Positions 28,187-57,800 of a stretch of 64,000 nucleotides of DNA are shown one piece after another. The notes under the pieces were generated by a model that was given only the letters and a program-made list of their open reading frames with translations, was not told the origin of the DNA and made no database searches. This DNA is from Bacteroidales bacterium (GTDB lineage: Bacteria > Bacteroidota > Bacteroidia > Bacteroidales > F082). The number at the start of each line of letters is the position of its first letter. The stretch's first letter is position 1. A program made the position numbers and the translations under genes. The stretch is taken from positions 1 through 64,000 of the forward strand of contig JAFPWT010000017.1 in assembly GCA_017394865.1 (NCBI GenBank). The letters are read 5' to 3'.

Positions 28187-28440
28187 ATATTTTCAATTTT
28201 CAATTCAAATTTCATTTTGAAAACAATCGGCTAAAATACAAAATAATCGGATAGGTTGAGCAAAACTTTTAACTTTTCTTACTTGAAAAAAATGCTGATC
28301 GTTGGATTATTATATTTTTTTGAAGTAATTAATAATAAATATTTCAATTATTTTATGATATGTATAAAAATAACATTATATCTTTGCAGCATCAAAATTA
28401 AAAGCCATGAAAAATTCTTTCCCTGAAAATCCAGTTGTTG

Positions 28441-28461
28441 TAAGAAATATTCTTACATTTG
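28441..28461 (+). promoter_or_regulatory. parDE promoter and operator
   Basis: TACATTTG (28454-28461) is a perfect -7 box 20 bases before the chosen parD ATG. The dyad TAAGAA-ATA-TTCTTA (28441-28455) overlaps it and is a good candidate for the ParD operator. A second -7 box, TATCTTTG, lies at 28379-28386. The rest of 28187-28440 is AT-rich with no other signal that I can see. Confidence 0.6.
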
Positions 28462-28481
28462 CACCACAAAAAACCAATACC

Positions 28482-28733
28482 ATGGGCAGAACAGTAACAG
28501 CTTCAATAGGTCCTCATTACGAAGAGTTTATTCAAAATTGCATCCTTGAAGGAAGGTATAACAATGCCAGTGAGGTCATTCGTGCGGGCCTCCGCCTGTT
28601 GGAAGAGGAGGAATCTCACCTAGCGGCACTCAGAGCGGCTTTAGACGAAGGTGAAGCCAGCCCAGATGTAGAGGATTTCGACCCTGAACGTTTTCTTCAA
28701 GAGCTGAAAGCAAAACACGAGGCAAATGGTTGA
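28482..28733 (+). CDS. parD: ParD-family antitoxin
   Basis: An 83-residue ribbon-helix-helix protein: MGRTVTASIGPHYEEFIQ forms the DNA-binding strand and first helix, GRYNNASEVIRAGLRLLEEEE the second helix, and the C-terminal acidic tail (DVEDFDPERFLQELKAKH) is the toxin-wrapping segment. ATG 28482 is chosen because the family begins here. An upstream in-frame ATG at 28407 would add 25 residues and is preceded by its own -7 box, so a longer form from the distal promoter is possible. It overlaps parE by eight bases. Confidence 0.9.
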   Translation: MGRTVTASIGPHYEEFIQNCILEGRYNNASEVIRAGLRLLEEEESHLAALRAALDEGEASPDVEDFDPERFLQELKAKHEANG

Positions 28734-29025
28734 CTACATTCTTTCCAAAAAGGCACAGGAAGACCTTCTCAAGATATGGTTCTATACTGTTGAAAACTGG
28801 TCGGGAAAACAGGCGGATATCTACTACAACAATCTAATCCAATCTTTTGAGTATATTGCGGATAACCCGGATATTGCCGGACGTTCTTACGAGGAAGTAC
28901 GTCCAAATTATCGAGGGTTTTCTTCTGGAAGACACATCATCTTTTATCGAAAACTGAAAAAGGGTAAAATCCGAATTATACGTATCCTCCACGAAAAGAT
29001 GGATTTCGGGAGACATTTGAAATGA
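28726..29025 (+). CDS. parE: ParE/RelE-family toxin
   Basis: A 99-residue toxin with the family pattern: YILSKKAQEDLLKIWFYTVENWS (first helices), a helix-turn AGRSYEEVRPNYRGFSSGRHIIFYR and C-terminal strand KIRIIRILHEKMDFGRHL. ParE proteins poison DNA gyrase, while RelE relatives cleave ribosome-bound mRNA; the HEKMDFGRHL ending is typical of ParE. Overlap with parD by eight bases indicates translational coupling. Confidence 0.9.
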   Translation: MVDYILSKKAQEDLLKIWFYTVENWSGKQADIYYNNLIQSFEYIADNPDIAGRSYEEVRPNYRGFSSGRHIIFYRKLKKGKIRIIRILHEKMDFGRHLK

Positions 29026-29049: not shown

Positions 29050-30216
29050 ATGGAAGATAATTATCAACTCATAACCAAAACCGTGGCCGGATTGGAAGAC
29101 GTGCTGGCCGCTGAGATCAAAGCTCTAGGAGCCAAAAACGTGAAGGTGATGCATCGCGCCGTCATCTGCGAAGGCAACAAGGAGATGATGTACCGCCTCA
29201 ACTACAATGTTCGCACTGGACTGAAGGTGCTGAAACCCTTCAAGACCTTCTTCGCCAAGAATCCCGACGAGCTATACAAAAAAGTGCAGGAAATCCAATG
29301 GTGGGAACTGCTCCGCACCGACCAAACCTTCTGCATCGACGCCGTGACCAGCGGACATTATTTCACCCACTCACAATACGCCGCCCTCAAGATGAAAGAC
29401 GCCATCGTCGACCAGTTCCGCGATGTGATGGGGCCACGGCCGAGCATTAATACACTTAACCCTGACCTTCGCATTAATCTGCACATCCGAGAGGACAAAG
29501 TAAGCATCTTGTTTGACAGCTCCAACGAGAGTCTTCACCATCGGGGATACCGCAAACAGGTGGACAAAGCCCCGATGAACGAGGTGCTGGCGGCTGGCTT
29601 GATCCAGCTCTCCGGCTGGAAGCGCGATTGCAATTTTCTCGACTGCATGTGCGGCTCGGGCACCCTGCCCATCGAAGCAGCCATGTTCGCCATGAAGATC
29701 CCGGCAGGTTATTATCGTAGACAGTGGGGCTTCATGAAATGGGACGACTGGGACCCGGAACTGTGGCAACGCGTCAAGGAAGAGGCCGACAGTCAGATCT
29801 GCGAGTTCGACCATGAGATTTGGGCCTCCGACCGATCACCCAAGGCGGTAGCCATCGCCGAAGGCAACATCACCAACGCCCACCTGCAACACGACATCCA
29901 CCTGATGAAGAAAAACATGGAAGACCTCACTCCGCCTGAGGAAGGTGGCATCGTCATTATCAACCCACCTTACGGCGACCGTCTCGAAGAGGATGACATC
30001 GACCAGGTGTACGAGAACATCGGCAACACACTGAAACACAACTTCCAGGGCTACCAATGCTGGCTCATCACCGACGACGCCGTGGCCCTGAAACACGTTG
30101 GATTAAAGCCCACCACCAAGATTCCGGTGTGGAATGGCCCACTGGAATGCCGGTTTGTGAGGTTTGATATTTTTTCCGGATCGTTAAAGGAGTGGAAAGT
30201 GAAGAGTGAAGAGTGA
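29050..30216 (+). CDS. THUMP-domain class I RNA methyltransferase
   Basis: A 388-residue enzyme with an N-terminal ferredoxin-like/THUMP module (about 1-155) and a Rossmann methyltransferase domain. The SAM-binding FLDCMCGSGTLPIEAA lies near 195-210 and the N6/N2 catalytic motif NPPYGDR at 305-311. It corresponds to the N-terminal half of RlmL, which methylates G2445 of 23S rRNA, but the exact target here is inferred. The last seven codons (residues WKVKSEE) and the stop are encoded by the heptamer repeat array that begins at 30192, so the natural C-terminus has been replaced or extended. Confidence 0.88.
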   Translation: MEDNYQLITKTVAGLEDVLAAEIKALGAKNVKVMHRAVICEGNKEMMYRLNYNVRTGLKVLKPFKTFFAKNPDELYKKVQEIQWWELLRTDQTFCIDAVTSGHYFTHSQYAALKMKDAIVDQFRDVMGPRPSINTLNPDLRINLHIREDKVSILFDSSNESLHHRGYRKQVDKAPMNEVLAAGLIQLSGWKRDCNFLDCMCGSGTLPIEAAMFAMKIPAGYYRRQWGFMKWDDWDPELWQRVKEEADSQICEFDHEIWASDRSPKAVAIAEGNITNAHLQHDIHLMKKNMEDLTPPEEGGIVIINPPYGDRLEEDDIDQVYENIGNTLKHNFQGYQCWLITDDAVALKHVGLKPTTKIPVWNGPLECRFVRFDIFSGSLKEWKVKSEE

Positions 30217-30275
30217 AGAGTGAAAAGTGAAGAGTGAAAAGTGAAATGTGAAAAGTGAGAAGTGAAAAGTGAAGA
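30192..30275 (+). repeat. GTGAARA heptamer array, left of four-helix gene 1
   Basis: Twelve head-to-tail 7-nt units, mostly GTGAAGA or GTGAAAA. The array overlaps the 3' end of the methyltransferase gene and runs into the GTG-ATG at which the four-helix gene begins. An inverted array follows that gene at 30635-30662. Confidence 0.95.
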
Positions 30276-30278
30276 GTG

Positions 30279-30641
30279 ATGGGCCCGAAAAGTATTGTTG
30301 GAGATAAAAGTTTGGCATTCGCAAAAAGAATTGCCCGGTGTTTTGTCTTTCTAAAAGAACAGAAAAAAGAAACCGTTATGTCAAAACAATTGTTGCGAAG
30401 CGGAACAAGTATTGGGGCCAATGTTCGTGAAGGACAATATGCTCAAAGCAAAAAAGATTTCATCAGCAAGATGAGCATCGCATTAAAAGAGGCTGGCGAA
30501 ACGAATTATTGGCTTGATGTTCTTCATTCTGTAAAATATCTCTCTGATGAAGAATATAGCTCTCTTAATAAAGACAACGACGAACTACTTAATCTATTAG
30601 CATCTATAGTTAAAACCTCAAAAGAAAAGAACAACTCTTAA
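30279..30641 (+). CDS. Four-helix bundle protein, 23S-rRNA-IVP/S23 family (copy 1)
   Basis: A 120-residue helical protein with the family hallmark LRSGTSIGANVREGQ (about 45-59) followed by AQSKKDFISKMSIALKEAGETNYWLDVLH and a last helix ending LLASIVKTSK. Relatives are encoded in intervening sequences of some bacterial 23S rRNAs and include the Avd accessory protein of diversity-generating retroelements; they form barrel-shaped pentamers that bind nucleic acid. No rRNA or reverse transcriptase is near. ATG 30279 is used; a GTG precedes it. The gene is framed by inverted heptamer arrays, which suggests a small mobile cassette. Confidence 0.88.
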   Translation: MGPKSIVGDKSLAFAKRIARCFVFLKEQKKETVMSKQLLRSGTSIGANVREGQYAQSKKDFISKMSIALKEAGETNYWLDVLHSVKYLSDEEYSSLNKDNDELLNLLASIVKTSKEKNNS

Positions 30642-30662
30642 CTTTTCACTTTTAACTCTTAA
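30635..30662 (-). repeat. Heptamer array, right of four-helix gene 1 (inverted)
   Basis: Four 7-nt units reading GTTAAGA, GTTAAAA, GTGAAAA on the minus strand, inverted relative to 30192-30275. It overlaps the stop codon of the four-helix gene and abuts the pth stop codon. Confidence 0.9.
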
Positions 30663-31220
30663 CTAATTAAACTGATTCATCGTCCTATCTGGCCCCTGAA
30701 TCACAAAGCTTTTAATCGCTTCGACCGCCTTATCGACGGTCTCGTCCACGACAGGCTCCTCCGAAGGTTTCCAAGTACCTAGGACGAAGTCGATCTGATG
30801 GCCACGGGCGAAGTCGTCGCCGATGCCGAAACGGAGGCGGCAAAAGGCGTTGGTGCCCAGTTTCTCGATGATGTCGGTAAGCCCGTTGTGTCCGCCGTCG
30901 GCGCCTTGTTTGCGCATGCGGATGGTGCCCACGGGCAGGGCGATGTCGTCGTTGACGACGAGCAGATTCTCCATCGGAATCTTTTCCTGATCGAGCCAAT
31001 ATTTCACTGCCTTGCCACTGAGGTTCATATAGGTGGTGGGCTTAATCACAATGAGCGTCCTGCCGCGGAACTTCATCTCCGCCACTTGGGCCAAACGGCT
31101 GGTGGTGAAGGTAGCCTCGAGGTCCTTTGCCAAACGGTCGGCAATACGAAAACCGGCATTGTGCCGAGTGTTTTCATATTCGGCACCGATGTTTCCAAGG
31201 CAAGCGATCAGGTATTTCAT
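30663..31220 (-). CDS. pth: Peptidyl-tRNA hydrolase
   Basis: A 185-residue enzyme that releases peptides from prematurely dissociated peptidyl-tRNA. The motif block is complete: LIACLGNIGAEYENTRHNAGF with the catalytic histidine, KPTTYMNLSGKAV, the VVNDDIALPVG strand with the catalytic aspartate, and RMRKQGADGGHNGLTDI. ATG 31220 begins the conserved MKYLIACLGN; the frame is open 30 bases further but that part is the palindrome at 31238. It is third in the prs-rplY-pth run. Confidence 0.95.
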   Translation of the reverse strand: MKYLIACLGNIGAEYENTRHNAGFRIADRLAKDLEATFTTSRLAQVAEMKFRGRTLIVIKPTTYMNLSGKAVKYWLDQEKIPMENLLVVNDDIALPVGTIRMRKQGADGGHNGLTDIIEKLGTNAFCRLRFGIGDDFARGHQIDFVLGTWKPSEEPVVDETVDKAVEAIKSFVIQGPDRTMNQFN

Positions 31221-31912: not shown

Positions 31913-31940
31913 CTCTAAATTCTAAATTCTCAATTCTAAA
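31913..31940. repeat. TTTAGAAT-type repeat behind prs
   Basis: On the minus strand, three units (TTTAGAATT, GAGAATTTAGAATT, TAGAG) follow directly on the prs stop codon. Confidence 0.8.
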
Positions 31941-32897
31941 TTACTTAAACAGTGAGCTGATCGACTCATAGTTCTCGATGCGACGGATCACATCGGCAAA
32001 CAGAGACGCAGTGCTCACAACTTTGATTTTCTTTGATGCGTTCTGGGGCAGCGGGATGGTATCGGTGACCACCACTTCTTCGAACACCGAGTTGTCAAGG
32101 CGTTCCATGGCGGGACCGCTGCACACGGCGTGGGTGGCGAAGGCACGGACGCTCTTGGCGCCAGCGTCCATCATCACCTGTCCGGCTTTCACGATGGTAC
32201 CAGCGGTGTCGATGATGTCGTCCAGAATGATGACGTTTTTGTCCTTCACATCGCCGATGAGGGTCATGCTCTCAACCACGTTGGCACGGGCACGTTGCTT
32301 GTGGCACACGGCCATGTCGCAACCCAGGCGTTTGGCATAGGCCGAGGCACGTTTGGAGGCACCGAGGTCAGGGGCGGCGATGAGCAGGTTGTCGATATTC
32401 ATCTTCTGGATGTGGTCGATGAAGAGGCTGGAGGCGTACAAGGCATCCATCGGGATGTCGAAGAAGCCCTGGATCTGGTCGGCATGGAGGTCCATGGTGA
32501 TGATACGATCCACATGAGCTGCCGTCAGCATATTGGCCACTAACTTCGAGCCGATGCTCACGCGAGGCTGGTCCTTACGATCCTGACGAGCCCATCCAAA
32601 GTATGGAATCACTGCGATGACCTTGTGAGCCGAGGCACGCTTGGCGGCATCGATCATCAGCAACAGTTCCATCAGGTTATCGGTCGGAGGCATGGTGGAC
32701 TGCACGATAAACACGTGACGGCCACGGATACTCTCGTCGAAAGAAGGCTGGAACTCACCATCAGAAAAGGTAACCACTGAGGATTTACCCTGTTTGAAAT
32801 CCGGCTTGTTCTCCTGACGACCGTATTCTTCCGCTATCTTGGCACCCAACTCTTGGGTGGCTCTTCCAGCAAAAATGGAAACGAATTTTTCTGACAT
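31941..32897 (-). CDS. prs: Ribose-phosphate pyrophosphokinase
   Basis: A 318-residue enzyme that makes PRPP from ribose 5-phosphate and ATP for purine, pyrimidine, histidine and NAD synthesis. It shows FSDGEFQPSFDESIRGRHVFIVQS (substrate flexible loop region), YFGWARQDRKDQPR, the MDLHADQIQGFFDIP block and the PRPP-binding VIILDDIIDTAGTI. ATG 32897 is chosen because MSEKFVSIFAG opens the conserved fold; the open frame extends to 33095 but that part overlaps the promoter and tRNA-Leu. Confidence 0.95.
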   Translation of the reverse strand: MSEKFVSIFAGRATQELGAKIAEEYGRQENKPDFKQGKSSVVTFSDGEFQPSFDESIRGRHVFIVQSTMPPTDNLMELLLMIDAAKRASAHKVIAVIPYFGWARQDRKDQPRVSIGSKLVANMLTAAHVDRIITMDLHADQIQGFFDIPMDALYASSLFIDHIQKMNIDNLLIAAPDLGASKRASAYAKRLGCDMAVCHKQRARANVVESMTLIGDVKDKNVIILDDIIDTAGTIVKAGQVMMDAGAKSVRAFATHAVCSGPAMERLDNSVFEEVVVTDTIPLPQNASKKIKVVSTASLFADVIRRIENYESISSLFK

Positions 32898-33249: not shown

Positions 33250-33942
33250 ATGATTTATACCCAAGAAGTGCAGCATCAGTGCTGCGTTAAGAAAGGCGCC
33301 AACCACCCCAGCGCTCCGATCCCGGAGGAAGGCAAGTGGGTACGCGTCAAAGATGTGAAAGACATCAGCGGGTTCACCCACGGCATCGGCTGGTGCGCCC
33401 CGCAACAGGGAGCCTGCAAGCTCACCCTCAACGTGAAAGACGGTATCATCCAAGAAGCCCTGGTGGAGACCATCGGCTGCTCCGGCATGACCCACTCAGC
33501 CGCCATGGCCGCCGAAATCCTGCCCGGCAAGACCGTCCTCGAAGCCCTCAACACCGACCTCGTGTGCGACGCCATCAACACCGCCATGCGCGAGATCTTC
33601 CTGCAGATCGTCTATGGTCGCTCACAGTCAGCCTTCTCCGAAGGCGGCCTGCTCATCGGCGCCTCCCTCGAAGACCTCGGCAAAGGCCTCCGCAGCCAGA
33701 TCGGCACCATGTTCGGCACCCTCGAAAAGGGTCCCCGCTACCTAGAGATGACCGAAGGCTACTGCTCACGCATCGCCCTCGACGAGAACAACGAGATCAT
33801 CGGCTACGAATTCATCAGCCTCGGCAAGATGATGGACTTCATCAAGAAAGGCGACGACGCCAACGAAGCCCTGAAGAAAGCCACCGGCACCTACGGCCGT
33901 TTCGCCGACGCAGCCAAGTATATTGACCCAAGAAAAGAATAA
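33250..33942 (+). CDS. NifU/SufU-like iron-sulfur cluster scaffold protein
   Basis: A 230-residue protein with the core scaffold fold: GIGWCAPQQGACKLTLNVKDGIIQEA, then ETIGCSGMTHSAAMAAEILPGK, where the cysteines (CAPQQGAC, GCSGM) could hold a cluster. It is longer than canonical SufU and has an extra C-terminal helix region. I know this family chiefly as the partner encoded beside the GGGtGRT protein, whose gene lies 444 bases downstream, here with a four-helix cassette between. A TATCTTTG box at 33195-33202 probably drives both. The C-rich N-terminus (HQCCVKKG) is unusual. Confidence 0.8.
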   Translation: MIYTQEVQHQCCVKKGANHPSAPIPEEGKWVRVKDVKDISGFTHGIGWCAPQQGACKLTLNVKDGIIQEALVETIGCSGMTHSAAMAAEILPGKTVLEALNTDLVCDAINTAMREIFLQIVYGRSQSAFSEGGLLIGASLEDLGKGLRSQIGTMFGTLEKGPRYLEMTEGYCSRIALDENNEIIGYEFISLGKMMDFIKKGDDANEALKKATGTYGRFADAAKYIDPRKE

Positions 33943-33966
33943 TAATTTAGAATTTAGAATTTAGAG
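33943..33966 (+). repeat. TTTAGAAT-type repeat, left of four-helix gene 2
   Basis: Three TTTAGAA units ending in TTTAGAG, starting directly behind the stop codon of the scaffold gene and ending five bases before the four-helix ATG. The right-hand partner is inverted. Confidence 0.9.
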
Positions 33967-33970
33967 AGAG

Positions 33971-34351
33971 ATGCTCAAGAACGAGAACGTTGTTCGGGAA
34001 AAAGGATTCAAATTTGCTATTAGAATCGTTCGGTTATATCAGTATTTAACCAACATTCAAAACAGCAATAGGGAACTCATCCTATCCAAACAAGTTCTCA
34101 GAAGTGGCACTAGTGTTGGGGCTAATATCCGTGAATCCAGAAACGCTCAAACAGTTAAAGACTTTTTAACCAAACTTTATATTGCTTCAAAAGAAGCGGA
34201 TGAAACGGGATATTGGTTGGAACTTCTAAAAGAAACAGGTTACATTTCCGAAGAACAATTCGAAAGTATAAACCAAGATTGTGAAGAAATAATGAAATTA
34301 TTAGCTTCTATTATTAAAACCACCAAAAAGAACAATCCCGACCTCAAATAA
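33971..34351 (+). CDS. Four-helix bundle protein, 23S-rRNA-IVP/S23 family (copy 2)
   Basis: A 126-residue relative of the gene at 30279, with LRSGTSVGANIRESRNAQTVKD and LASIIKTTKKN in the same places; the two differ at many positions, so they are not a recent duplication. It lies inside the scaffold-GGGtGRT pair, framed by inverted TTTAGAAT-type repeats whose outer edges touch the neighbouring stop and start codons. Its base composition is clearly more AT-rich than both neighbours, which fits insertion. Function unknown; nucleic-acid binding is inferred from family members. Confidence 0.88.
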   Translation: MLKNENVVREKGFKFAIRIVRLYQYLTNIQNSNRELILSKQVLRSGTSVGANIRESRNAQTVKDFLTKLYIASKEADETGYWLELLKETGYISEEQFESINQDCEEIMKLLASIIKTTKKNNPDLK

Positions 34352-34383
34352 CTCTAAATTCTAAATTCATAATTCTAAATTAA
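34352..34383 (-). repeat. TTTAGAAT-type repeat, right of four-helix gene 2 (inverted)
   Basis: CTCTAAATTCTAAATTCAT and a further ATTCTAAATTA, inverted relative to 33943-33966 and nearly identical to the hydF-hydG spacer. It starts at the four-helix stop and ends two bases before the GGGtGRT ATG. Confidence 0.9.
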
Positions 34384-34385
34384 AT

Positions 34386-35393
34386 ATGAGAAGAGAAGTG
34401 AAATTCGAAAGTCAGGAACGCCGCATGGCCAATGTCCTGAAGGTTTTAAATCAATACGGCATCAAGAGCATCGAAGAAGCCGATGAGATCTGCGAGGCCA
34501 AGGGCATCGACCCGTACAAGATGGCTGAGGAAACCCAGCCTATCTGCTTCGAGAATGTGAAGTGGGCCTACACCTGCGGTGCCGCCATCGCCATCAAGAA
34601 GGGCTGCAAGAACGCCGCTGACGCTGCCGAAGCCATCGGCGAAGGCCTCCAGTCGTTCTGCATCGACGGTTCCGTCGCCGACGACCGTAAGGTCGGCATC
34701 GGCCACGGCAACCTCGCCGCCCGTCTGCTCCGCGAGGAGACCGAGTGCTTCGCCTTCCTGGCGGGCCACGAGAGCTTCGCCGCCGCCGAAGGCGCCATCA
34801 AAATCGCCGAGATGGCCAACAAGGTGCGCCAGAAACCCCTGCGCGTCATCCTTAACGGCCTCGGCAAAGACGCCGCCAAGATCATCAGCCGCATCAACGG
34901 CTTCACCTACTGCCGCACCGAGTTCGACTACTACACCGGCAAGGTGACGGTCGTAGAGCGCATCCCCTACTCCACAGGACTCCGCTCCAAGGTGAACTGC
35001 TACGGTGCTGATGACGTCCGCGAAGGCGTGGCCATCCTTTGGCTCGAGAACGTCGACGTGTCCATCACCGGCAACTCCACCAACCCCACCCGCTTCCAGC
35101 ACCCCGTGGCAGGCACCTATAAGAAAGAGCGCCTCCTCGCTGGCAAGCCTTACTTCTCAGTGGCTTCAGGCGGTGGCACAGGCCGCACGCTGCACCCGGA
35201 CAACATGGCCGCCGGCCCCGCCAGCTATGGCATGACCGACACCATGGGCCGCATGCATAGCGACGCCCAATTCGCTGGCTCCTCATCCGTTCCGGCACAC
35301 GTCGAGATGATGGGGTACCTCGGCATGGGTAACAACCCGATGGTGGGCGCCACCGTCGCCGTCGCCGTAGCCGTTGAACAAGCTATGAAATAA
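34386..35393 (+). CDS. GGGtGRT-family protein
   Basis: A 335-residue protein carrying the namesake motif exactly (SGGGTGRTLHPDN, near residues 260-272), together with GSVADDRKVGIGHGNLAARLL and GMGNNPMVGATVAVAVAVEQAM. The biochemical role is not established; association with the iron-sulfur scaffold gene upstream suggests cluster or metal metabolism. It starts two bases behind the right-hand repeat of the four-helix cassette, so its translation signals were probably altered by that insertion. Its 3' end overlaps the convergent CotH gene by 11 bases. Confidence 0.85.
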   Translation: MRREVKFESQERRMANVLKVLNQYGIKSIEEADEICEAKGIDPYKMAEETQPICFENVKWAYTCGAAIAIKKGCKNAADAAEAIGEGLQSFCIDGSVADDRKVGIGHGNLAARLLREETECFAFLAGHESFAAAEGAIKIAEMANKVRQKPLRVILNGLGKDAAKIISRINGFTYCRTEFDYYTGKVTVVERIPYSTGLRSKVNCYGADDVREGVAILWLENVDVSITGNSTNPTRFQHPVAGTYKKERLLAGKPYFSVASGGGTGRTLHPDNMAAGPASYGMTDTMGRMHSDAQFAGSSSVPAHVEMMGYLGMGNNPMVGATVAVAVAVEQAMK

Positions 35394-37395
35394 TTAATTT
35401 CTGGGTCTTGTCACCGATGGTGATAAAATAGATTCCGGAAGGTAATTTTGAAACGTCAATCCGATCATTTAATGGGCCAGCCATCAAGGTTTGGCCCATT
35501 ATATTTGTGATGCGGTATTCCCCATCAGGGGCCCCGACAATATTCACAATACCGGTTGTGGGATTCGGAAACACCCCGAATCCTTCATTTGCTGTATTCT
35601 CCATTATCCCCGTGAGATCATTCCCTATCGTCCAGCTCTCGGGAAGACTGTTATCCAAGTCCAAATCAATTAATTGCAAATAGGGTCCTTCGCCATCAGC
35701 CTCCCAGGGCCAGGGATCGCTGTCGTAATAGTGCACCTGGTCGATGATGTTACCCCAAGCATCAGCCAGCACCAAATTCTCCGACTTGTTCGAAAGGTTA
35801 CGATCGAACTGCCCGAAAGGCACCATATTGTAATATTCGATGAACGCCAGCGAGTCGGAACAAAGCACTAAGGCCTCGCGCCCGGCAAGCGTCGATCCAA
35901 CAGGGAAACCATAGGTGATGCCCAGCTCACGGAAATAGATCCCCGTCAAATCCACCTCGGCATCGCCGTTGTTGGTGATCTCGATGAACTCCAGCTGGTC
36001 ACCGTCGATGGCCCACCAGTCTTCAGGGTGATAATGGATCTTGGAGATGACCAACGGAGGCAGTTCTACGTCTTGACAACCGTCGTATGAACCGATGTTT
36101 TGGTTAAGCCAATCGATACGGTTTTGGATCCATGTTTTCATTGACTGCAGTTCCGATGCATGCTGATTCATCTGATGCCACCGTTGATTGTCACGACCCA
36201 CTCCTTCGCTGATCCAGGCATCAATTTCATCAATGCGAGCACATAATACATCGTAATTCAAAGGCTGTTCAGGCTCGGTTAGTTCAAACCAGCGCTTGGC
36301 CAGATAACAGCGGAAGAGCGACGTGTTGAAAAGGTCTTTCCAGAACTTCGGACCGACATTGTCACTATTGTCGAACTGCCACACGTAATAAAGGCTACGG
36401 TTGCCAAACTCGTCATGGCCATAGGCCAGGTTGTAGTCCCAGATCGGACCTGCGCGGAGTTTGCCCAGCCGGTCTTTATGGAAAAAGGTACTCAGTTCAT
36501 ACACATCCACGTTGGATGAGAACTCGCCCATGATCATGAAATCGACAAACGAAGGAATGTCGATCACCGAAGGGATGCCCGAGGTAACGGAAACGTCGTG
36601 GGACCCGGCCTTCGAGGCCAAGGTGTTGAACACGTTATGGATGTAGTTGTGCTGTGCCGTGGTGATATCCTCCGGCTTGGGATAGTGATGCACAAAAGTA
36701 GTGCTGCTGCCGCCCCACCAGCCTCCGCCGTAACCCTGCATGGTCCAAGCCACTGGGTCCCCGTTGTCAGCCCTGTCGGCCTTGGTGATATAGCCACCAG
36801 TAACCTCGGGGTAGTTGTTGCAGGACTCGTCCATCTTCACAATGTTCACCCGGTCCTTGTCCGCCTTGATCTTTTCCAAAAAGATGTACAGCCCTTTGTA
36901 GTCGTTGTTGATCACCACTTCGCAATACACCCGCCGAGGGGCATACTGTCCGAGACGTTCCGAGAGCTCGTATGAGAGGAAGTCGCGCATCCCCGTCTGG
37001 TCATAGGCGAGGCCGTTCAAGATCCAATCATTCTCCGAGGGCATACCCAGAATGCTGACGTTGTTGTTGGTCACATTGTCCGCCTGCAAAGTGGTCAAGC
37101 CATATTGTTTTTTCTGAATCAACTGCGAGGAACTGCCCCTGATCTCGATGCTGATGCGTCCGTCGTAGTTCAGGAACTGGGGGTTGTTCACATCGGTCAG
37201 GTAATTGCGCGAGCCATCCTGATGCCAGATGATTTTCATGTTGCCGTACACCCTAGGCTCGTCAGGGATGGAGGCACCGCCGTCGATGTCGATGACCACG
37301 ATGGGCAGGTTGCTGTCGGTCAAAATCTGGGCATAGGCCACACACCATCCCGCCATAATCCACAACACCGATAATAAGATCCGTATTCTTTTCAT
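35383..37395 (-). CDS. Secreted CotH-kinase protein with lamin-tail and type IX sorting domains (copy 2)
   Basis: A 670-residue protein: signal peptide (1-22, ending AYA), a CotH-kinase domain (about 60-450; YGLTTLQADN, DWILNGLAYDQTGMRDFLSYEL, CEVVINNDYKGLYIFLEKIK and RAGPIWDYNLAYGHDE), a lamin-tail beta domain (about 470-600; VISKIHYHPEDW, LEFIEITNNGD, NLVLADAWGN) and a type A sorting domain. CotH proteins phosphorylate other secreted proteins in spore formers; the substrate here is unknown. It overlaps the upstream paralogue by four bases (ATGA). Confidence 0.9.
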   Translation of the reverse strand: MKRIRILLSVLWIMAGWCVAYAQILTDSNLPIVVIDIDGGASIPDEPRVYGNMKIIWHQDGSRNYLTDVNNPQFLNYDGRISIEIRGSSSQLIQKKQYGLTTLQADNVTNNNVSILGMPSENDWILNGLAYDQTGMRDFLSYELSERLGQYAPRRVYCEVVINNDYKGLYIFLEKIKADKDRVNIVKMDESCNNYPEVTGGYITKADRADNGDPVAWTMQGYGGGWWGGSSTTFVHHYPKPEDITTAQHNYIHNVFNTLASKAGSHDVSVTSGIPSVIDIPSFVDFMIMGEFSSNVDVYELSTFFHKDRLGKLRAGPIWDYNLAYGHDEFGNRSLYYVWQFDNSDNVGPKFWKDLFNTSLFRCYLAKRWFELTEPEQPLNYDVLCARIDEIDAWISEGVGRDNQRWHQMNQHASELQSMKTWIQNRIDWLNQNIGSYDGCQDVELPPLVISKIHYHPEDWWAIDGDQLEFIEITNNGDAEVDLTGIYFRELGITYGFPVGSTLAGREALVLCSDSLAFIEYYNMVPFGQFDRNLSNKSENLVLADAWGNIIDQVHYYDSDPWPWEADGEGPYLQLIDLDLDNSLPESWTIGNDLTGIMENTANEGFGVFPNPTTGIVNIVGAPDGEYRITNIMGQTLMAGPLNDRIDVSKLPSGIYFITIGDKTQKLIIS

Positions 37396-39410
37396 TTCAC
37401 GATCAGTTTTTGGGTCATTCCATCAATTTCGACGAAATAAAGACCGGTGGGTAATGAAACATCAATCTGTTGTAGAGACGTGCCATGGCGCGTCTCTACA
37501 GCGTTTAATGGGCCGGTCATTAGGGTTTGGCCCATTACATTTGTGATGCGGTATTCCCCATCGGGAGCACCGACAATATTCACGATGCCTGTTGTAGGAT
37601 TGGGATAAATCCTGAACCCTTCATTTGCTGTATTCTCCATTATCCCCGTAAGGTCATTCCCTATCGTCCAGCTCTCGGGAAGACTGTTATCCAAGTCCAG
37701 ATCAATCAATTGCAGATAGTATCCTTCGCCGTCGGCCTGCCTGGGCCATGGGTCACTGTCGTAGTAATGCACCTGGTCGATGATATTACCCCAAACATCG
37801 GCCATCACTAGGTTCTCCGATTTGTTCGAAAGGTTACGGTTGAACTGACCGAAAGGCACCATGTTATAATATTCGATGAACGCCAGCGAATCGGAGCAAA
37901 GCACCAAGGCCTCACGTCCGGCAAGTGTCGATCCAACAGGGAAACCGTAGGTGATGCCCAGTTCACGGAAATACACGCCTGTCAGATCCACTTCCTCGTC
38001 ACCATTGTTGGTGATTTCGATGAATTCCAACCGGTCGCCGCTGAAATTCTGCCAATCCAAGGGGTGGTAATGGATTTTGGAGATGACCAAAGGAGGCACA
38101 TCCACATCGGAGCAATCCTCGCAGGATCCAATATTTGAAGAGATCCAGTCAGCGCGGAGCTGAATCCAGTTTTTCATCCCCTCCACTTCAGCAGAATGAC
38201 CCCAAAGCAGATTCCATCGTTGCTGGTCATGATAGATTCCCTCAACAATCTCCGTTTCAATCTCGTCGATGCGGTTGTTAACAAATTCCACATTGAGCGG
38301 TTGGCCGGGTTGTGTCAACTCTTCCCATCGTTTTGCGAGAAAACAGCGATAGGTGGGCGAATTGAAAAGCTCGTACCAAAAGCGGGAACCTTCGTTGCTG
38401 CCATTATGGAACTGCCACACATCGTGTTCGCTGGTGATGCCCCATTCATCGAAACCCAAGGCGAAATTGCTGTCCCACAGCGGACCGGCACGCAGCTTTC
38501 CGTTGCGTTCCTTATGGAAAAAAGTGCTGTGTACATAACCGTCGGGATTGGAGATATATTCAGTGATCAGCATATAGTCAATGAATGAAGGGATATCGAT
38601 GATAGAAGGGTAACCTGTCACGAGCGACTCATCATGTGCCACGGCAGCCTCGTCAAAATCGAAAAAGACGCTTTTGATGTATTCATGTTGAGCATCCGTA
38701 ATCAGTTGCGGCTTGGGATAGTGGTGGATATAGGCCACCTCGGCCCATGAATAGTTACTGACCATGGTCCAAGCCACCGGGTCGCCTCCGGTGGTCTTGT
38801 CAGCTTTGGTGATATAGCCGCCAGTGACTTCTGGAAAGGCATTGCAACTCTCATCCATCTTCTCAATATTGACCCTGTTTTTGTCCACCTTTATCTTCTC
38901 CAGAAAAACATACAAGCCTTTGTAGTCGCCGTTGACCATCACCTCGCAATATTTTCGACGGGTAGCGTAATTGCCCATGAGTTCATAAAGCTCATAGGAG
39001 AGGACATCGCGCATACAGGTTTTGTCGAATGCCAAGTTGTTCAAAATCCAGTCGTTCTCCTCAGGCATTCCAAGGATGCTGACGTTGTTGTTACTCACGT
39101 CATCCGGCAGAAGGGTTGTCAGTCCGTAGGGTTTCTTCTCAATAGTTTGGGAGGTGCTTCCACGGGTCTCGATGCTGATACGTCCGTCGTAATTCAGAAA
39201 TTGGGGATTGTTGATGTCGGTCAAGTAATTGCGGGAGCCATCCTGATGCCAGATGATTTTCATGTTGCCATACACTCTGGGCTCATCAGGAATCGGGACC
39301 CCACCATCGGTCTCGATGACCACGATAGGCAGGTTGCTCTCGGTAAGGATCTGGGCCCGGAGCCATGGAGCATTCACCAGCATTAATAATAGGACTATAA
39401 GTCTTTTCAT
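37392..39410 (-). CDS. Secreted CotH-kinase protein with lamin-tail and type IX sorting domains (copy 1)
   Basis: A 672-residue paralogue of the next gene, with the same order: signal peptide (1-19), CotH-kinase domain, lamin-tail domain and sorting domain. N- and C-terminal thirds are very similar to the paralogue at the base level, while the middle of the kinase domain is much less so. The sorting domain contains 10 extra codons (between PLN and QIDVS) that coincide with a 30-bp palindrome, inserted in frame. ATG 39410 is used; the frame is open to 39416 only through a TTG. Confidence 0.9.
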   Translation of the reverse strand: MKRLIVLLLMLVNAPWLRAQILTESNLPIVVIETDGGVPIPDEPRVYGNMKIIWHQDGSRNYLTDINNPQFLNYDGRISIETRGSTSQTIEKKPYGLTTLLPDDVSNNNVSILGMPEENDWILNNLAFDKTCMRDVLSYELYELMGNYATRRKYCEVMVNGDYKGLYVFLEKIKVDKNRVNIEKMDESCNAFPEVTGGYITKADKTTGGDPVAWTMVSNYSWAEVAYIHHYPKPQLITDAQHEYIKSVFFDFDEAAVAHDESLVTGYPSIIDIPSFIDYMLITEYISNPDGYVHSTFFHKERNGKLRAGPLWDSNFALGFDEWGITSEHDVWQFHNGSNEGSRFWYELFNSPTYRCFLAKRWEELTQPGQPLNVEFVNNRIDEIETEIVEGIYHDQQRWNLLWGHSAEVEGMKNWIQLRADWISSNIGSCEDCSDVDVPPLVISKIHYHPLDWQNFSGDRLEFIEITNNGDEEVDLTGVYFRELGITYGFPVGSTLAGREALVLCSDSLAFIEYYNMVPFGQFNRNLSNKSENLVMADVWGNIIDQVHYYDSDPWPRQADGEGYYLQLIDLDLDNSLPESWTIGNDLTGIMENTANEGFRIYPNPTTGIVNIVGAPDGEYRITNVMGQTLMTGPLNAVETRHGTSLQQIDVSLPTGLYFVEIDGMTQKLIVK
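37471..37500. repeat. Dispersed palindrome, copy 3, inside a CotH gene
   Basis: TGTAGAGACG...CGTCTCTACA with the centre GCCATGGC also self-complementary: 30 bp with one mismatched pair. It adds 10 residues to the sorting domain relative to the paralogue. Confidence 0.9.
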
Positions 39411-39427
39411 TATCAAAGGCTTTCGAG

Positions 39428-43823: not shown

Positions 43824-44636
43824 TTAATGATTTCGTTCAGCACAAAACACGGTCAGATCCCTCAAAGACGAGAAAGCATCTTGGTCTATAGTATAAGGTG
43901 CCAAAGCATCGAGGGCCTTCAAGGCCTTGTCAAGATATTGGGGTAGCAGTTGTTTAGCTAGGGCGGTAGTCTCAGGATCGTCATCGTCGAGGATGTCGTC
44001 GCGCATCTGGAACACCAAGCCAAGGTTCAAGCCAAAATCACTGATAAGTGAAGAGTGGAGAGTGTAAAGTGAAGAGTTCACCGACATAGCACCACAAACA
44101 CAACATCCCTGGATCAACCGGGCCGTTTTCCGGGTGATAATCTCAAGATAAAGTTCTCCGTTTTCCGTTTTAACTCGTTCCGCTTCATTGAGGATTGCTT
44201 TGTGTCGTCTTTCGTTTTGAAGGAGTTCTCCCTCTGACATCATCATCGCCACGTTAAGCATTTCCTGAAGGATGGGGCTGTCGATGGGATCGGAGAGCTG
44301 CATCATCGCCTTTGCAAGGAGATAGTCGCCGGCCAGCACCGCCGACTCCACATCCCATTGGGCATTCAGCGATGCCTGTCCACGGCGGACATCCGACGCA
44401 TCCACCACATCGTCGTGGATCAACGTGGCTGTGTGGAGCATCTCCACAAACAAAGCCGTACGTCGCGTGGAATCGTTGATGTCGCCGAAGAGACGCGCCG
44501 ACAGGTACACCAGCTGGGGACGAAGCCGTTTCCCCAGTGCCGCCGCCACGTAACGCATGAGCTCGTCCATCGGCACGGCATCGCTCGTCATAGCTAGTCT
44601 AAAAGCCTCTTCGAACTGTTCCAACTCTTTTTCCAT
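43824..44636 (-). CDS. Reduced polyprenyl (isoprenyl diphosphate) synthetase
   Basis: A 270-residue member of the trans-isoprenyl diphosphate synthase family. GKRLRPQLVYLSARL and the first aspartate motif (D75-D76-x2-D79, IHDDVVDASDVRRG) are intact, and the second is RDDILD (213-217). Two oddities follow. Residues 186-199 are encoded by four GTGAARA heptamer units (44048-44075). After the second aspartate motif the usual GK-x-TLP segment and about 50 residues are missing (DILDDDDPETTALAKQLLP goes straight to the C-terminal helices). Family members are normally about 320 residues. It may be inactive or make a short product. ATG 44636 follows the -7 box by six bases. Confidence 0.8.
   Translation of the reverse strand: MEKELEQFEEAFRLAMTSDAVPMDELMRYVAAALGKRLRPQLVYLSARLFGDINDSTRRTALFVEMLHTATLIHDDVVDASDVRRGQASLNAQWDVESAVLAGDYLLAKAMMQLSDPIDSPILQEMLNVAMMMSEGELLQNERRHKAILNEAERVKTENGELYLEIITRKTARLIQGCCVCGAMSVNSSLYTLHSSLISDFGLNLGLVFQMRDDILDDDDPETTALAKQLLPQYLDKALKALDALAPYTIDQDAFSSLRDLTVFCAERNH
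44048..44075 (+). repeat. GTGAARA heptamer units inside the polyprenyl synthetase gene
   Basis: Four 7-nt units (GTGAAGA, GTGGAGA, GTGTAAA, GTGAAGA) on the plus strand, antisense to the gene and in frame with it (28 nt, flanked so that the frame stays open). Confidence 0.85.
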
Positions 44637-53942: not shown

Positions 53943-54533
53943 ATGTTTCTCGAAAAAGATTCTCATAATAAGTCACAAGGATGGATTGAAGTCATCTGTG
54001 GGTCAATGTTCTCGGGTAAGACTGAAGAGCTGATCCGACGTTTGAAACGCGCAAAAATCGCCAAGCTGAAGGTGGAGATTTTCAAGCCTGGGGTCGACAC
54101 ACGCTATAGTGAGGAGGACGTGGTATCGCATAACGCCACGGCCTTGCATTCCATCCCAGTGGAGAATGCCACGCAGATCCTGTTATATGCCAACGATGTG
54201 GACGTGATCGGCATCGACGAGGCACAGTTCCTCGACGACGAGCTTCCGGCGGTATGCCAGCAGCTGGCCGACAATGGTGTCCGCGTCATCATCGCGGGGT
54301 TGGATATGGATTTCATGGGAAAACCCTTCGGGCCGATGCCTACGCTGATGGCCATTGCCGAGGATGTCACTAAAGTACATGCCATCTGTGTGAAATGTGG
54401 CAGTCCGGCGCAGTTCTCGCACCGTACCATCGCGGGGGACAAACTCGTAGTTCTGGGCGAAACAGAAAGCTACGAGCCATTATGCAGGGAATGCTATAAT
54501 AGGGTAATTGAGAATTTAGAATTTAGAGGGTGA
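53943..54533 (+). CDS. tdk: Thymidine kinase
   Basis: A 196-residue type II thymidine kinase for pyrimidine salvage. P-loop GSMFSGKTE (20-28), [12 protein letters not shown] (Walker B) and a zinc site with two CxxC pairs ([10 protein letters not shown] and CRECYN) are intact. The C-terminus (ENLEFRG) and stop are encoded by the left arm of a perfect inverted repeat (54506-54569), not by sequence typical of the family. Confidence 0.95.
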
Positions 54534-54569
54534 TGACGACAAATCCCTCTAAATTCTAAATTCTCAATT
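54506..54569. repeat. Perfect 25-bp inverted repeat, gene-less TTTAGAAT element
   Basis: Left arm 54506-54530 (it contains GAGAATTTAGAATTTAGAGGG less one base) and right arm 54545-54569 are exact complements with a 14-nt loop. The arms have the same orientation as the repeats around the four-helix gene at 33971. Stop codons of both convergent genes lie at or inside it, and with the flanking T-run it may also terminate transcription. Confidence 0.93.
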
Positions 54570-54830
54570 CTTTTCTCTCTTCTTCTTACTTAACAAGTAG
54601 GCTCCTCCGAGCCCGACCAATAGAAACAGTCCGTTTCCAATGGGAACGTAGCCCTCTTTCCATTGGTCGAGGTTGGAGTTTTGCAGCGGCACCATTACAT
54701 TGAATGAACCAGGGTCGTTGGTAAGACGTTGGTTGATGCCAACGTCTTCCTCGGTGAGAATGATCTGCCCTATGGCTGGCCCTATGGCCAGGAACGCGAT
54801 CACGATAATAGCTATGGTTCTTTTAATCAT
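54564..54830 (-). CDS. Small exported membrane protein with C-terminal sorting-like tail
   Basis: An 88-residue protein: signal peptide (about 1-21, ending AIG), a short mature region, then PIGNGLFLLVGLGGAYLLSKKKREKN, a P-I-x-x-G, hydrophobic segment and polybasic tail like the PID-CTERM type sorting signals of Bacteroidota (quoted here only in part). It starts 14 bases behind the giant repeat protein gene, so they share a transcript. The final residues and stop codon are repeat-encoded. No catalytic motif. Confidence 0.6.
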   Translation of the reverse strand: MIKRTIAIIVIAFLAIGPAIGQIILTEEDVGINQRLTNDPGSFNVMVPLQNSNLDQWKEGYVPIGNGLFLLVGLGGAYLLSKKKREKN

Positions 54831-54844
54831 ATTTCAATATCTCT

Positions 54845-57800
54845 TTAATATATAACTATCTTTTGTGTCTTGTTGCCGAGTTTCAGCAGATACATACCTG
54901 CCGCAACGTCGCCGAAGTTCACCACGGTGCTTTCGCCGCTCAGGTAGTCGGAGTACAGCACGTGTCCAAGCATGTCAACCAGCTGGATCACGCCTTGGCC
55001 TTCGACGACCCATCCGGTGCCGTTGAAGTAGACAAAGTTATCACCTTCGTCGTTCTCATCCACGCCGTTCACGTCGAACACGATATAGAATCGGGCGGCG
55101 AAGTCGGTGTTGTGAGCCTGGAAGGTGTATTGGTCGTTCGCCAGCATGTCGTAGTCGACACCGGCGATGTTGTCGATGAGTCGCATCCTGTTGAAGGTGC
55201 CGTTGTACTTCTCCCATCTGAGGGTGTAGGTACCGGTCGTCGGGGTCTTGAAGAACACTGGGACGCGTTGTGTACCCTCCGGAGCGAAGAGCAGTCCATA
55301 GCTCTCGTCCTCGAAGCGGGCATACAGCTTGAATTGAGCGTTCTGCAGGTTTTCAACTTTCGGCACACCACCTGTCTCAGGACGGTTGAACTCCACGATG
55401 GCGATGTCTCTGTTGCCTTCTTCGTCGGAGACGAGCAAGTCAACCAACGGGTAGCTCGGCTTGCTGCGGAAGTAAGAGTAAGCTTCCTTCGTGGTACCGG
55501 CCATATCAGGAGTGAAGTCAAGCACATCGTCAGACGAAGTGACTACGAAGAAGCCCTGATGCGGGTGGAGGTACTGTGACGGGATCTTCGGGTTGATGGA
55601 TGCGCTTCTCGTGTAAGGCGCATATACACCCAGATCGGCGTCATAGGTCCAGAACTTGTCGAGACCAGGATTACCATCTGTGAGCTTATCCAGATCAAGG
55701 TAGGCTTGATAGGGGTTACCCACCAAGTTGCTGCCTCTGTCGAACGAAGGATATCCTGAAACATCATCAGGAGCCTGGGCCGTGACCGGGATGGAGACTG
55801 CCTTGTTGAGGGTACCCTTGCTGCTCAGGTAGCTATCCTGGCTGATGGCCATCATGTAGCCCTTACCGGGAGTGAACACGCAGTTATCATCGCCGGCAAC
55901 GGTAGCAGACTGGTCAGTAGCGTTATAATTGATCTGATAATGCCTGAAGTAGTTTCCAGCCAAATCCAACCTATCAAGCTGATAAGGCACATTCGGAGTA
56001 ATGATACCTTCGTGGGCATCGCGGTGGAAGTGGTTCATCTTGTTACGCTTCAGGTTGATCCAGTGGTATTCTGGCTCATAGTAGCTGTAGAAGTCCCATT
56101 TCACGCCACTATCGTAACCCGCAGCCATCGTCAATCCATTCGGGAAGTAGTTGTCCTCCATCGAGACGATATCGACAAGATCATCTTGGTAAACCACACC
56201 TGGGAAGTGATCATTGTCGTGAGGCTGGTATTCACCATTGTCAATCAGTTGGTCGTCAATGCCGTCAGCCCTACCATAATGGGTACCCACCTTAGCGTTC
56301 TGCAACGGAGTCGACATCAGGTGCCAGTCATAGTCAAGTGCGACATTGCCATAGGCCGTTGCAGTTGTACCCGAGTTATCGAAGGTGATACCCACGGTGG
56401 TGTTGGTAAATGAACCAGCTGTCGAGGCCTGCAGCAGCACGGCGTCTTCGTTGACGAAGACCTTTTCGTCAGCGGTAGGCACCTGTGTGACGCCTGTAGC
56501 CGTTCCATAGAGGAAGATGCTGGCGGTCTTGTCGCCATAATCGCTAAGCAGTCTGTCGAGGTTGCTGTTATACCTCAAGAAGCGTCCATCGACGTCGAGG
56601 GTAGCCATGGCGCTGTCCTGCGGGAAGCCCAACACCGGCAGGTCGGCGTTGATGTGTGATGAGGTCGGACGGAACCAAGGTGTCGGGAGAGGATCCAAAC
56701 CTGCGGGATTGGCCTTCACCCAGCTGTTCAACACATAGAGCAGACCGTTCCAGATGATGGAGTGATGGTCGCTATCATGTGAGAGGCTGGCAGGTACATA
56801 GGTGTTGGTGCCGACGCCTTCAAGATTCACCTTGTTGTCGTCGTACATATAGCCAATCTCCTTGAGGCCCTTCACAGGTCCGTAAGTGCCGTGGCCGGAG
56901 AGCGTGTTGTCGGTGCCTGTGACCTTGGCCACATAGTTACCAGCCATGCCAACGTTGGCGTAGCAGTACTGAATGGTACCGCCATGGTTTTCGTAGGCAA
57001 GAGCAGCGATGTTTTGAGCGCCGACATCGGAGTAGCAGTTCTCCACGGTACCGCCGTGGTTGTAACCCACGAGGCCGCCGATTTGGTTGGTCTGGGTCAA
57101 GGTGCCGTCGGCGATCAGGGTACGGCTATAAGAGTTATACAGGTTGCCGCCGCTATGTTCGCCTACCAGACCGCCGAGATACATGTCGCTACTGAGCGCT
57201 TTCAAGGTATCGACGGCAAAGCTGGAGTGGATGGTTGAACCCGTGACGGTACCGCCGGCCAGACCTCCGATGAAGCTGGTGCTGGTGGTTCCGCTTTCGA
57301 GGTAACCGGCGCTTTCGCAGTTGGACAGTGTACCACTGTTCATCAAGCCGACCACGCCACCCAGGTATTTGGCGTTGCCATAGTAGAAGTCAACCACAGC
57401 TTGCAGGTTCTTGATTTCAGCATCGCCAGAGACCGATCCGAACACACCTTTATGGTTCAAGGCAAACGGGCTATGGATGCCGGTCACCAGGTGGCCATTG
57501 CCTTCGAAGACGCCTGTGTAGCTGTAGTCAGGATCAGTGGCTTTTTCATGGACTCCAATCGGCACCCAGATGTACTGATCCATGTCGATGTCGGCAGTGA
57601 TGGTGAATTTCTGAGAGGGGTGAGCAGCTGAGCCATTCAAGCCGTTCACATAAGAGATGGCCCAAGCCAGTTGTTTAGGTGTCGAGATGTTGATGTTAGT
57701 AACAGATTCAATGAATCCAGCAGGTTTTTCGGTCACCACGTCCGTCCAGGTTTTCACCCAGTAGAGCTTACGCTGGTAGTTAGGATCACCGTTGGATTGT

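Follow-up and report, generated by a model that had tools for sequence, protein, structure and literature searches.

A putative mobile cassette made of an S23-family gene between inverted heptamer arrays in a Bacteroidales genome

Results

In the window, that is, the whole stretch of 64,000 nucleotides of Bacteroidales DNA analysed here, a gene of the S23 (23S_rRNA_IVP) four-helix-bundle family lies on the plus strand at 33971..34351. Its product of 126 aa matches the profiles PF05635 (E 2.8e-27) and TIGR02436 (E 3.8e-31), both well above cut-off, and its closest solved relative is 2rld (E 3.4e-39), 2gsc being another. The upstream host gene (33250..33942, plus strand) is weakly NifU_N-like, scoring 20.7 bits where the cut-off is 22, and the downstream host gene (34386..35393, plus strand) codes for a GGGtGRT protein (PF14057). 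Two arms bound the S23 gene. The left arm (33943..33966, plus strand) consists of three AATTTAG heptamers and begins immediately past the stop codon of the upstream gene. The right arm (34352..34383, plus strand) is an inverted heptamer array (TCTAAAT) that stops two bases 5' of the ATG of the GGGtGRT gene at 34386. Positions 33943-33965 are 91% complementary to 34360-34382 across 23 nt, and Tandem Repeats Finder detects a period of 7 at 33944-33965 and at 34353-34381. The profile matches and the complementary arms confirm the statement of the earlier note that an S23-family gene is placed here between inverted repeats, and the coordinates agree with its reading that these repeats extend from the host stop codon to two bases before the next start. 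The inverted layout of the repeats was correctly described, but they are tandem arrays of a heptamer rather than single TTTAGAAT boxes. We take such heptanucleotide tandem arrays to be STRR-like, a 7-bp tandem unit being present here.

As had also been noted, this cassette (element 1) is richer in AT than both neighbours, with a GC content of about 0.32-0.34 versus 0.60-0.66. Folded as a single strand, it is closed by its paired arms (z -4.04; 0 of 100 shuffles equally stable), and its inverted-flank score is 36. The S23 frame is the sole ORF of at least 80 aa in the cassette, in which we found no transposase or integrase gene and no catalytic ORF of that length besides S23.

Relatives of this locus were fetched by the GGGtGRT protein. 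The search covered 60 genomes, including the source genome, and yielded 14 loci (L004-L017). Both host genes are present in 13 of them, the fourteenth (L017) being a contig edge, and in all 13 they are adjacent, as the earlier note had expected, with a spacer that contains GGAG (for example, TAAGGAGGACATACC before the GGGtGRT ATG). In the window, the GGAGG spacer of the downstream gene is gone and about 440 nt stand in its place; the second codon of this gene (GCA), present in loci of the same genus, is missing. Because the relatives keep the two genes together with this short spacer, element 1 is an insertion that replaced it.

A second element spans 30190-30665 of the window and has an inverted-flank score of 32. 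Its left arm (30190..30281, plus strand) is a (GTGAARA)n array that overlaps the end of the upstream ORF, rlmL-like by eye, and also takes in the first bases of S23 gene 2. This gene (30276..30641, plus strand) codes for 121 aa, with a GTG start as listed and an ATG at 30279, and its end overlaps the right arm (30633..30665, plus strand), where the heptamer array is inverted. S23 gene 2 is 0.46 identical to S23 gene 1 and is the only other S23 gene found in the source genome, which is rated 73% complete. Among 29 relatives read at the element 2 site, 17 have both host genes at most 150 nt apart and no S23. One locus (L242) carries an S23 gene directly after the upstream gene of element 2, with the unit GGAAAGT and an identity of 0.51 to S23 gene 2 and 0.57 to S23 gene 1; no pth was found in that locus. 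Another (L239) has an S23-less hairpin with the unit GGAAAAC, and a third (L241) has an array without S23 and no pth in the locus. A different palindrome, which has GCAATGACG or a near-identical variant at one end, lies between the rlmL-like gene and pth in L245, L249, L257 and L259.

Further heptamer arrays are found in the window. An S23-less hairpin at 54504..54572, at the 3' end of a thymidine-kinase-like ORF (by eye), has the unit and the inner end of element 1 (TTTAGAG ... CTCTAAA). A single TCTAAAT array, again the element 1 unit and without S23, lies at 31913..31943, and a single AGTGAAG array lies at 44047..44077 within an ORF that looks polyprenyl-synthetase-like by eye. The hairpin and the single arrays bear units that also occur in the two S23 elements. 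Across 456 kb of the source genome, period 7 is the commonest among periods 4-15 (12 arrays). Apart from heptamer arrays, the window contains two ORFs of 670 and 674 aa in tandem that are clear paralogues with near-identical stretches (35383-39416, minus strand), two overlapping small ORFs that resemble by eye a ParD/ParE-type toxin-antitoxin pair (28407-29025), and a repetitive ORF of 3026 aa, by eye a large surface protein (54845-63925).

Inverted short repeats flank S23 genes in general, as the earlier note had proposed to examine. The genus set comprises 93 S23 genes with usable flanks, namely the best-scoring part of the matches plus the two of the window, and 90 of these genes reach an inverted-flank score of 26. 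The median own-flank score in this set is 39, versus 18 for 465 mismatched pairs and 17 for 90 far slices. Period-7 arrays lie within 250 nt upstream of 51/93 and downstream of 53/93 of these genes, compared to 4/91 and 2/92 control slices taken 750-1000 nt away. In a minority the flanks also match in the same direction (18/93 genus genes reach 40). The cross-phylum set was drawn from at least 80 named loci, and after removal of five with short flanks it holds 77 genes from 75 loci; Bacteroidota, Clostridia, Acidobacteria, Verrucomicrobia, Proteobacteria and Patescibacteria are among the record titles. Among the matches listed, 56/77 reach 26, versus 18/385 mismatched pairs and 2/68 far slices, period-7 arrays are present in 29/77 and 31/77 cases versus 1/73 and 3/72 far slices, and 21/77 genes are without clear inverted arms. 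A further set of 26 genes, five of which (L349, L350, L352-L354) repeat cross-phylum loci, gives 17/26 versus 4/130 mismatched pairs. For cyanobacterial plasmids, 12 of 30 matching records were taken, two of these loci being near-duplicates; 9/12 reach 26 versus 8/60 mismatched pairs, with same-direction arrays in L327 and scores below the threshold in L328 and L332. As a control, only 1/264 other, automatically listed ORFs of 90-150 aa reaches 26 in 20 stretches of the source genome. Within the window's own S23 subfamily in the order, 19/28 own pairs reach 26, but so do 60/280 mismatched ones; the test is weak because the units are alike (AATTNNN). Among lags 5-11, this subfamily is enriched at 7 only.

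Some loci depart from the simple layout. In L020, L021, L028 and their kin the arrays are nested, so that each S23 flank resembles a heptamer hairpin of its own, and in L392 the inverted arms around an S23 match with an internal stop are unusually long, at about 118 nt (score 156). The idea that a 7-bp unit with TAG provides stops in all frames was dropped, as several units have no TAG, TGA or TAA. With regard to a 23S rRNA context, comparison of 20 other S23 loci with Rfam matched no rRNA. In a spirochaete-group genome (L377), tRNA genes at 1338-1425 and 1919-2004 of the locus flank the S23 match.

The hairpins are specific in both period and content. In 1.62 Mb of fetched DNA, part of it duplicated, there are 101 tandem-array hairpins of period 7, and 0, 1, 10, 2, 0 and 0 at periods 5, 6, 8, 9, 10 and 11. 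When exact duplicates are removed, 96 period-7 hairpins are left, 75 with loops of 300-900 nt and 21 with short loops and without S23. An S23 gene is found inside 72 of the 75 long-loop hairpins, and the remaining three resemble stretches between two separate arrays; as most loci were fetched for S23, this ratio describes hairpin content and says nothing on hairpin frequency. If only the window and the loci retrieved through host genes or as plain stretches are counted, all long-loop hairpins (9/9) hold S23, and 10 others have short loops. The hairpin set includes 200 distinct S23 domain sequences, and only about one third of them satisfy the strict hairpin criterion.

Filled and empty states coexist at further sites. 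Two of these, sites A and B, were picked for an S23 gene already known there. Site A lies between hbd-like and acyl-CoA-dehydrogenase-like genes (names by eye) in loci of the genus; in 30 genomes it holds S23 in a hairpin (5), an S23-less hairpin (10), nothing (13), another palindrome (1) or a contig end (1). The S23-less hairpins have mostly different units, and that of L271 is weak (score 18). Site B, after pyrB, has S23 in 5 of 30 loci and an S23-less hairpin of the same unit in 3. Comparison shows that hairpins devoid of S23 do exist. The states at site A track the tree, with 8 changes versus a shuffled mean of 13.4 and a minimum of 9, which indicates that occupation is partly inherited and that gains there are few.

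These data could also mean that the hairpins are primary, arising on their own as intercistronic signals for RNA processing or stability, or as slippage products, with S23 genes landing in their loops in the way that intervening sequences of rRNA take the place of small loops in 23S helices. At site A, S23-less hairpins outnumber those with S23, and the units vary between close relatives. Behind the rlmL-like gene, S23 is present in the window and in G088 and an S23-less hairpin in G008; the three differ in unit, and each unit is similar, by eye, to the host sequence next to it. We also considered that the unit is seeded from the target site, as the likeness of the arrays to host sequence at the rlmL-like site would imply, but related S23 genes elsewhere share units, and we keep this idea only as part of the hairpins-first explanation. 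Other evidence speaks against hairpins arising first. The arms of four of the ten site A hairpins (L284, L286, L288, L290) match arms of S23 elements from elsewhere, with scores of 36-43 versus shuffled maxima of 19-24; for five (L271, L276, L282, L285, L287) the match is no better, or hardly better, than shuffled.

Arms travel with the S23 gene. This follows from the finding that related S23 genes at unrelated sites share arms. Among pairs without a shared flanking protein, arms match (score of at least 24) in 60/91 pairs at an S23 identity of at least 0.75, in 31/85 at 0.6-0.75, in 25/269 at 0.45-0.6 and in 105/3100 below 0.45; this test used elements with an own score of at least 28 only, and its pairs are not independent. 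L085 and L096 have S23 genes 0.79 identical and arms that do not match. Comparison shows that the arms accompany the S23 gene to different sites, and the contrast between 60/91 and 105/3100 makes the hairpins-first explanation rather unlikely in our view. Moreover, for pairs at exactly the same site and in the same orientation with an S23 identity below 0.85, own pairing exceeds cross pairing in 102/119 cases (means 41.4 vs 30.3). By this comparison, the heptamer units are shown to change on both sides together, and the arms stay complementary.

At four sites, Nostoc-type plasmids carry the same segment in a filled and in an empty form, in records that are 82% to 97% identical to the filled queries. 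Site P1, at a TraM gene, is filled in L329 and L338 and empty in L335, while L336 has S23-less arrays of a similar unit and L337 has other sequence. P2, at an integrase gene, is filled in L323 and L324 and empty in L339-L341. P3a is filled in L343, L345 and L346 and empty in L334, L342, L344 and L347, and P3b is filled in L334 and empty in L342-L347. In L346 the S23 gene at P3a is annotated short, at 240 bp, and is possibly decaying. The insertions take over or adjoin the short spacer between stop and start; the filled and empty pairs show replaced spacers and, at one site, a possible ATG repeat, and by eye no target duplication is constant among them. Thus, the empty sites that the earlier note suggested seeking in relatives were found both at the window locus and elsewhere.

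With respect to orientation, the gene upstream of S23 is in line with it in 84/92 genus cases and 63/71 cases across phyla, counted where an ORF was found and with length as the sole ORF criterion. Cross-phylum elements mostly have a G-rich 5' arm, the skew being above 0 in 46/50 and below 0 in 3; the genus set is less clear, with 56 and 27 of 88. In 12/12 cyanobacterial plasmid loci the two annotated genes on either side of S23 share one direction. In three of these (L325, L328, L331) it is antisense to the surrounding genes, so read-through translation cannot always serve. Altogether, comparison shows that the element sits between host genes that are neighbours in relatives, in most cases behind a gene of the same direction. 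In two site groups (31 pairs), S23 faces either way between the same host genes, the outcome expected of recombination between the arms.

The S23 protein itself is under strong constraint, as shown by comparison of 75 pairs with a median dN/dS of 0.054; the pairs were selected for identities of 0.85-0.99, which biases this ratio downwards. This bears on two other explanations. The first is passive spread, in which an inert cassette would be moved by homologous recombination, by plasmids or by a transposase acting in trans on the inverted ends. The absence from the cassette of any catalytic gene of at least 80 aa besides S23, the carriage on plasmids and the finding of one S23-carrying segment common to two plasmids of one strain are in agreement with it. 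An inert passenger, however, would hardly combine such constraint with being nearly the sole gene in these hairpins, and these two observations speak for a role of S23 in the upkeep of the element. We consider passive spread unlikely.

The second is that S23 is a domesticated regulator that binds the hairpins of its own operon, controls host gene expression and is inherited vertically with the host genes. The very low dN/dS and the sense orientation after a gene would be expected of such a protein, as would the persistence of S23 at the same site over species in 14 site groups, one of them loose. On the other hand, close relatives differ in the presence of S23, the host genes are very different, and empty operons retain both of them. 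In addition, L038 and L076 have at one site S23 genes just 0.51 identical and with different units. A regulatory origin of this kind is therefore very improbable.

Discussion

Our results point to a hairpin-bounded mobile cassette, built from one S23 gene and inverted 7-bp arrays, as the probable nature of the element, which would belong broadly with the S23-bearing intervening sequences (IVSs) of 23S rRNA. The earlier note had proposed a small mobile unit without transposase or integrase. The empty sites and the generality of the inverted repeats support this proposal, and from them we infer mobility itself. Against a mobile cassette stands the finding that, unlike with an active transposon, near-identical copies within a genome were not found in four genomes. 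This sign of recent bursts was missing, the best S23 identity being 0.74 among G009, G061 and G068 and 0.67 in G126. S23 lineages, moreover, often remain at the same site in different species, a pattern equally compatible with vertical inheritance and loss. Further points against it are the cross-phylum genes without clear inverted arms, the five site A hairpins whose arms match no better or hardly better than shuffled ones, the antisense S23 genes of three plasmid loci and the lack, by eye, of a constant target duplication.

A mobile cassette of this kind could work as follows. In read-through transcripts the two arrays would pair into a stem that is cut by RNase III, by analogy with the rRNA IVS of Coxiella. 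The cut would free the S23 message and separate the host cistrons, and the insert would consequently be well tolerated. Slippage by 7 nt, together with copying or recombination between the arms, may keep the arrays matched and invert the gene. The S23 pentamer might bind the heptamer hairpin and shield it, or deliver it to a trans-acting polymerase or reverse transcriptase, as the analogy with Avd suggests. Such delivery in trans would lead to rare, mostly horizontal spread, and S23-less hairpins whose arms match those of S23 elements would be non-autonomous derivatives.

The rRNA IVSs of Coxiella and Leptospira carry an S23 ORF. The sections on the Coxiella IVS in PMC4990558 describe three tandem GACAGAT heptamers (two in some strains) before the S23 start, and a 28-bp stem processed by RNase III with ends within the stem, the IVS being excised from the RNA and the ends not religated. 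They state that the S23 protein is probably not made, and they recount older proposals in which IVSs are remnants of transposition or mobile elements, with an ORF for mobility. The element resembles the 23S rRNA IVS: both have an S23-family ORF, inverted stem-forming ends, a length of about 430 nt and a GC content below that of the host, and heptamers before the ORF are reported in Coxiella (PMC4990558). Unlike these IVSs, the window element lies between protein genes and not inside 23S or 16S rRNA, its heptamer arrays are two-sided with lineage-specific units, and it has S23-less forms.

Heptamer arrays have been reported on their own. According to the relevant parts of PMC4679880, TAACTGA arrays occur in Beggiatoaceae, Cyanobacteria and Bacteroidetes, with a mechanism of spread that is not evident. 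They share with ours the period of 7, the intergenic position often next to start codons and a possible horizontal spread (PMC4679880). The arrays described here differ in being inverted in pairs around S23, and the main text of that article contains neither "S23" nor "four helix". The PF05635 family is said to resemble Avd in the section of PMC10053308 that compares 4DWL with 2GSC, and the likeness to Avd of diversity-generating retroelements drawn here is that of this section; the cassette, however, with its single ORF of at least 80 aa, appears to have no reverse transcriptase and no template or variable repeat. A listing of cas-associated functions in PMC3936711 includes 18 IVP genes in cas loci. 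We found S23 between cas6 and cas4 in two cyanobacteria and between cmr2 and cmr3 (L326, L327, L333). In contrast to the cas-associated reading of that listing, S23 here looks like an operon insert; its heptamer arms are inverted in L326 and L333, and L327 has arrays of one direction. In the literature searched, which included few subscription papers, we found no work linking S23 genes located outside rRNA with inverted heptamer arrays. While S23-bearing rRNA IVSs and heptamer arrays were already known, the joining of S23 outside rRNA with inverted heptamer arrays appears to be what is new in this study.

We favour a widespread element of which the S23-bearing 23S rRNA IVS would be a special case, its movement and the role of S23 being what we infer from these comparisons. 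A wider proposal, which we advance only tentatively, is that of a cross-phylum class of minimal mobile elements, each possibly consisting of one non-enzymatic, pentameric S23 protein and inverted 7-bp arrays. Their S23-less derivatives might be behind a large part of the long-puzzling heptamer repeats in Bacteroidota and Cyanobacteria, the 23S rRNA IVS might be one of their niches, and spread might proceed through an RNA or single-strand hairpin that S23 passes to a polymerase or reverse transcriptase acting in trans.

The mobile cassette would join two loose ends, namely the S23 protein of the rRNA IVSs, which has no assigned function, and the intergenic heptamer arrays, which lack an evident mechanism of spread. 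The heptamer hairpin is a natural candidate for the substrate of S23. Moreover, a reason is offered for the presence of S23 genes inside CRISPR, nucleotide-reductase and other operons to which they would not belong, and the named filled and empty plasmid pairs make the movement of IVSs testable.
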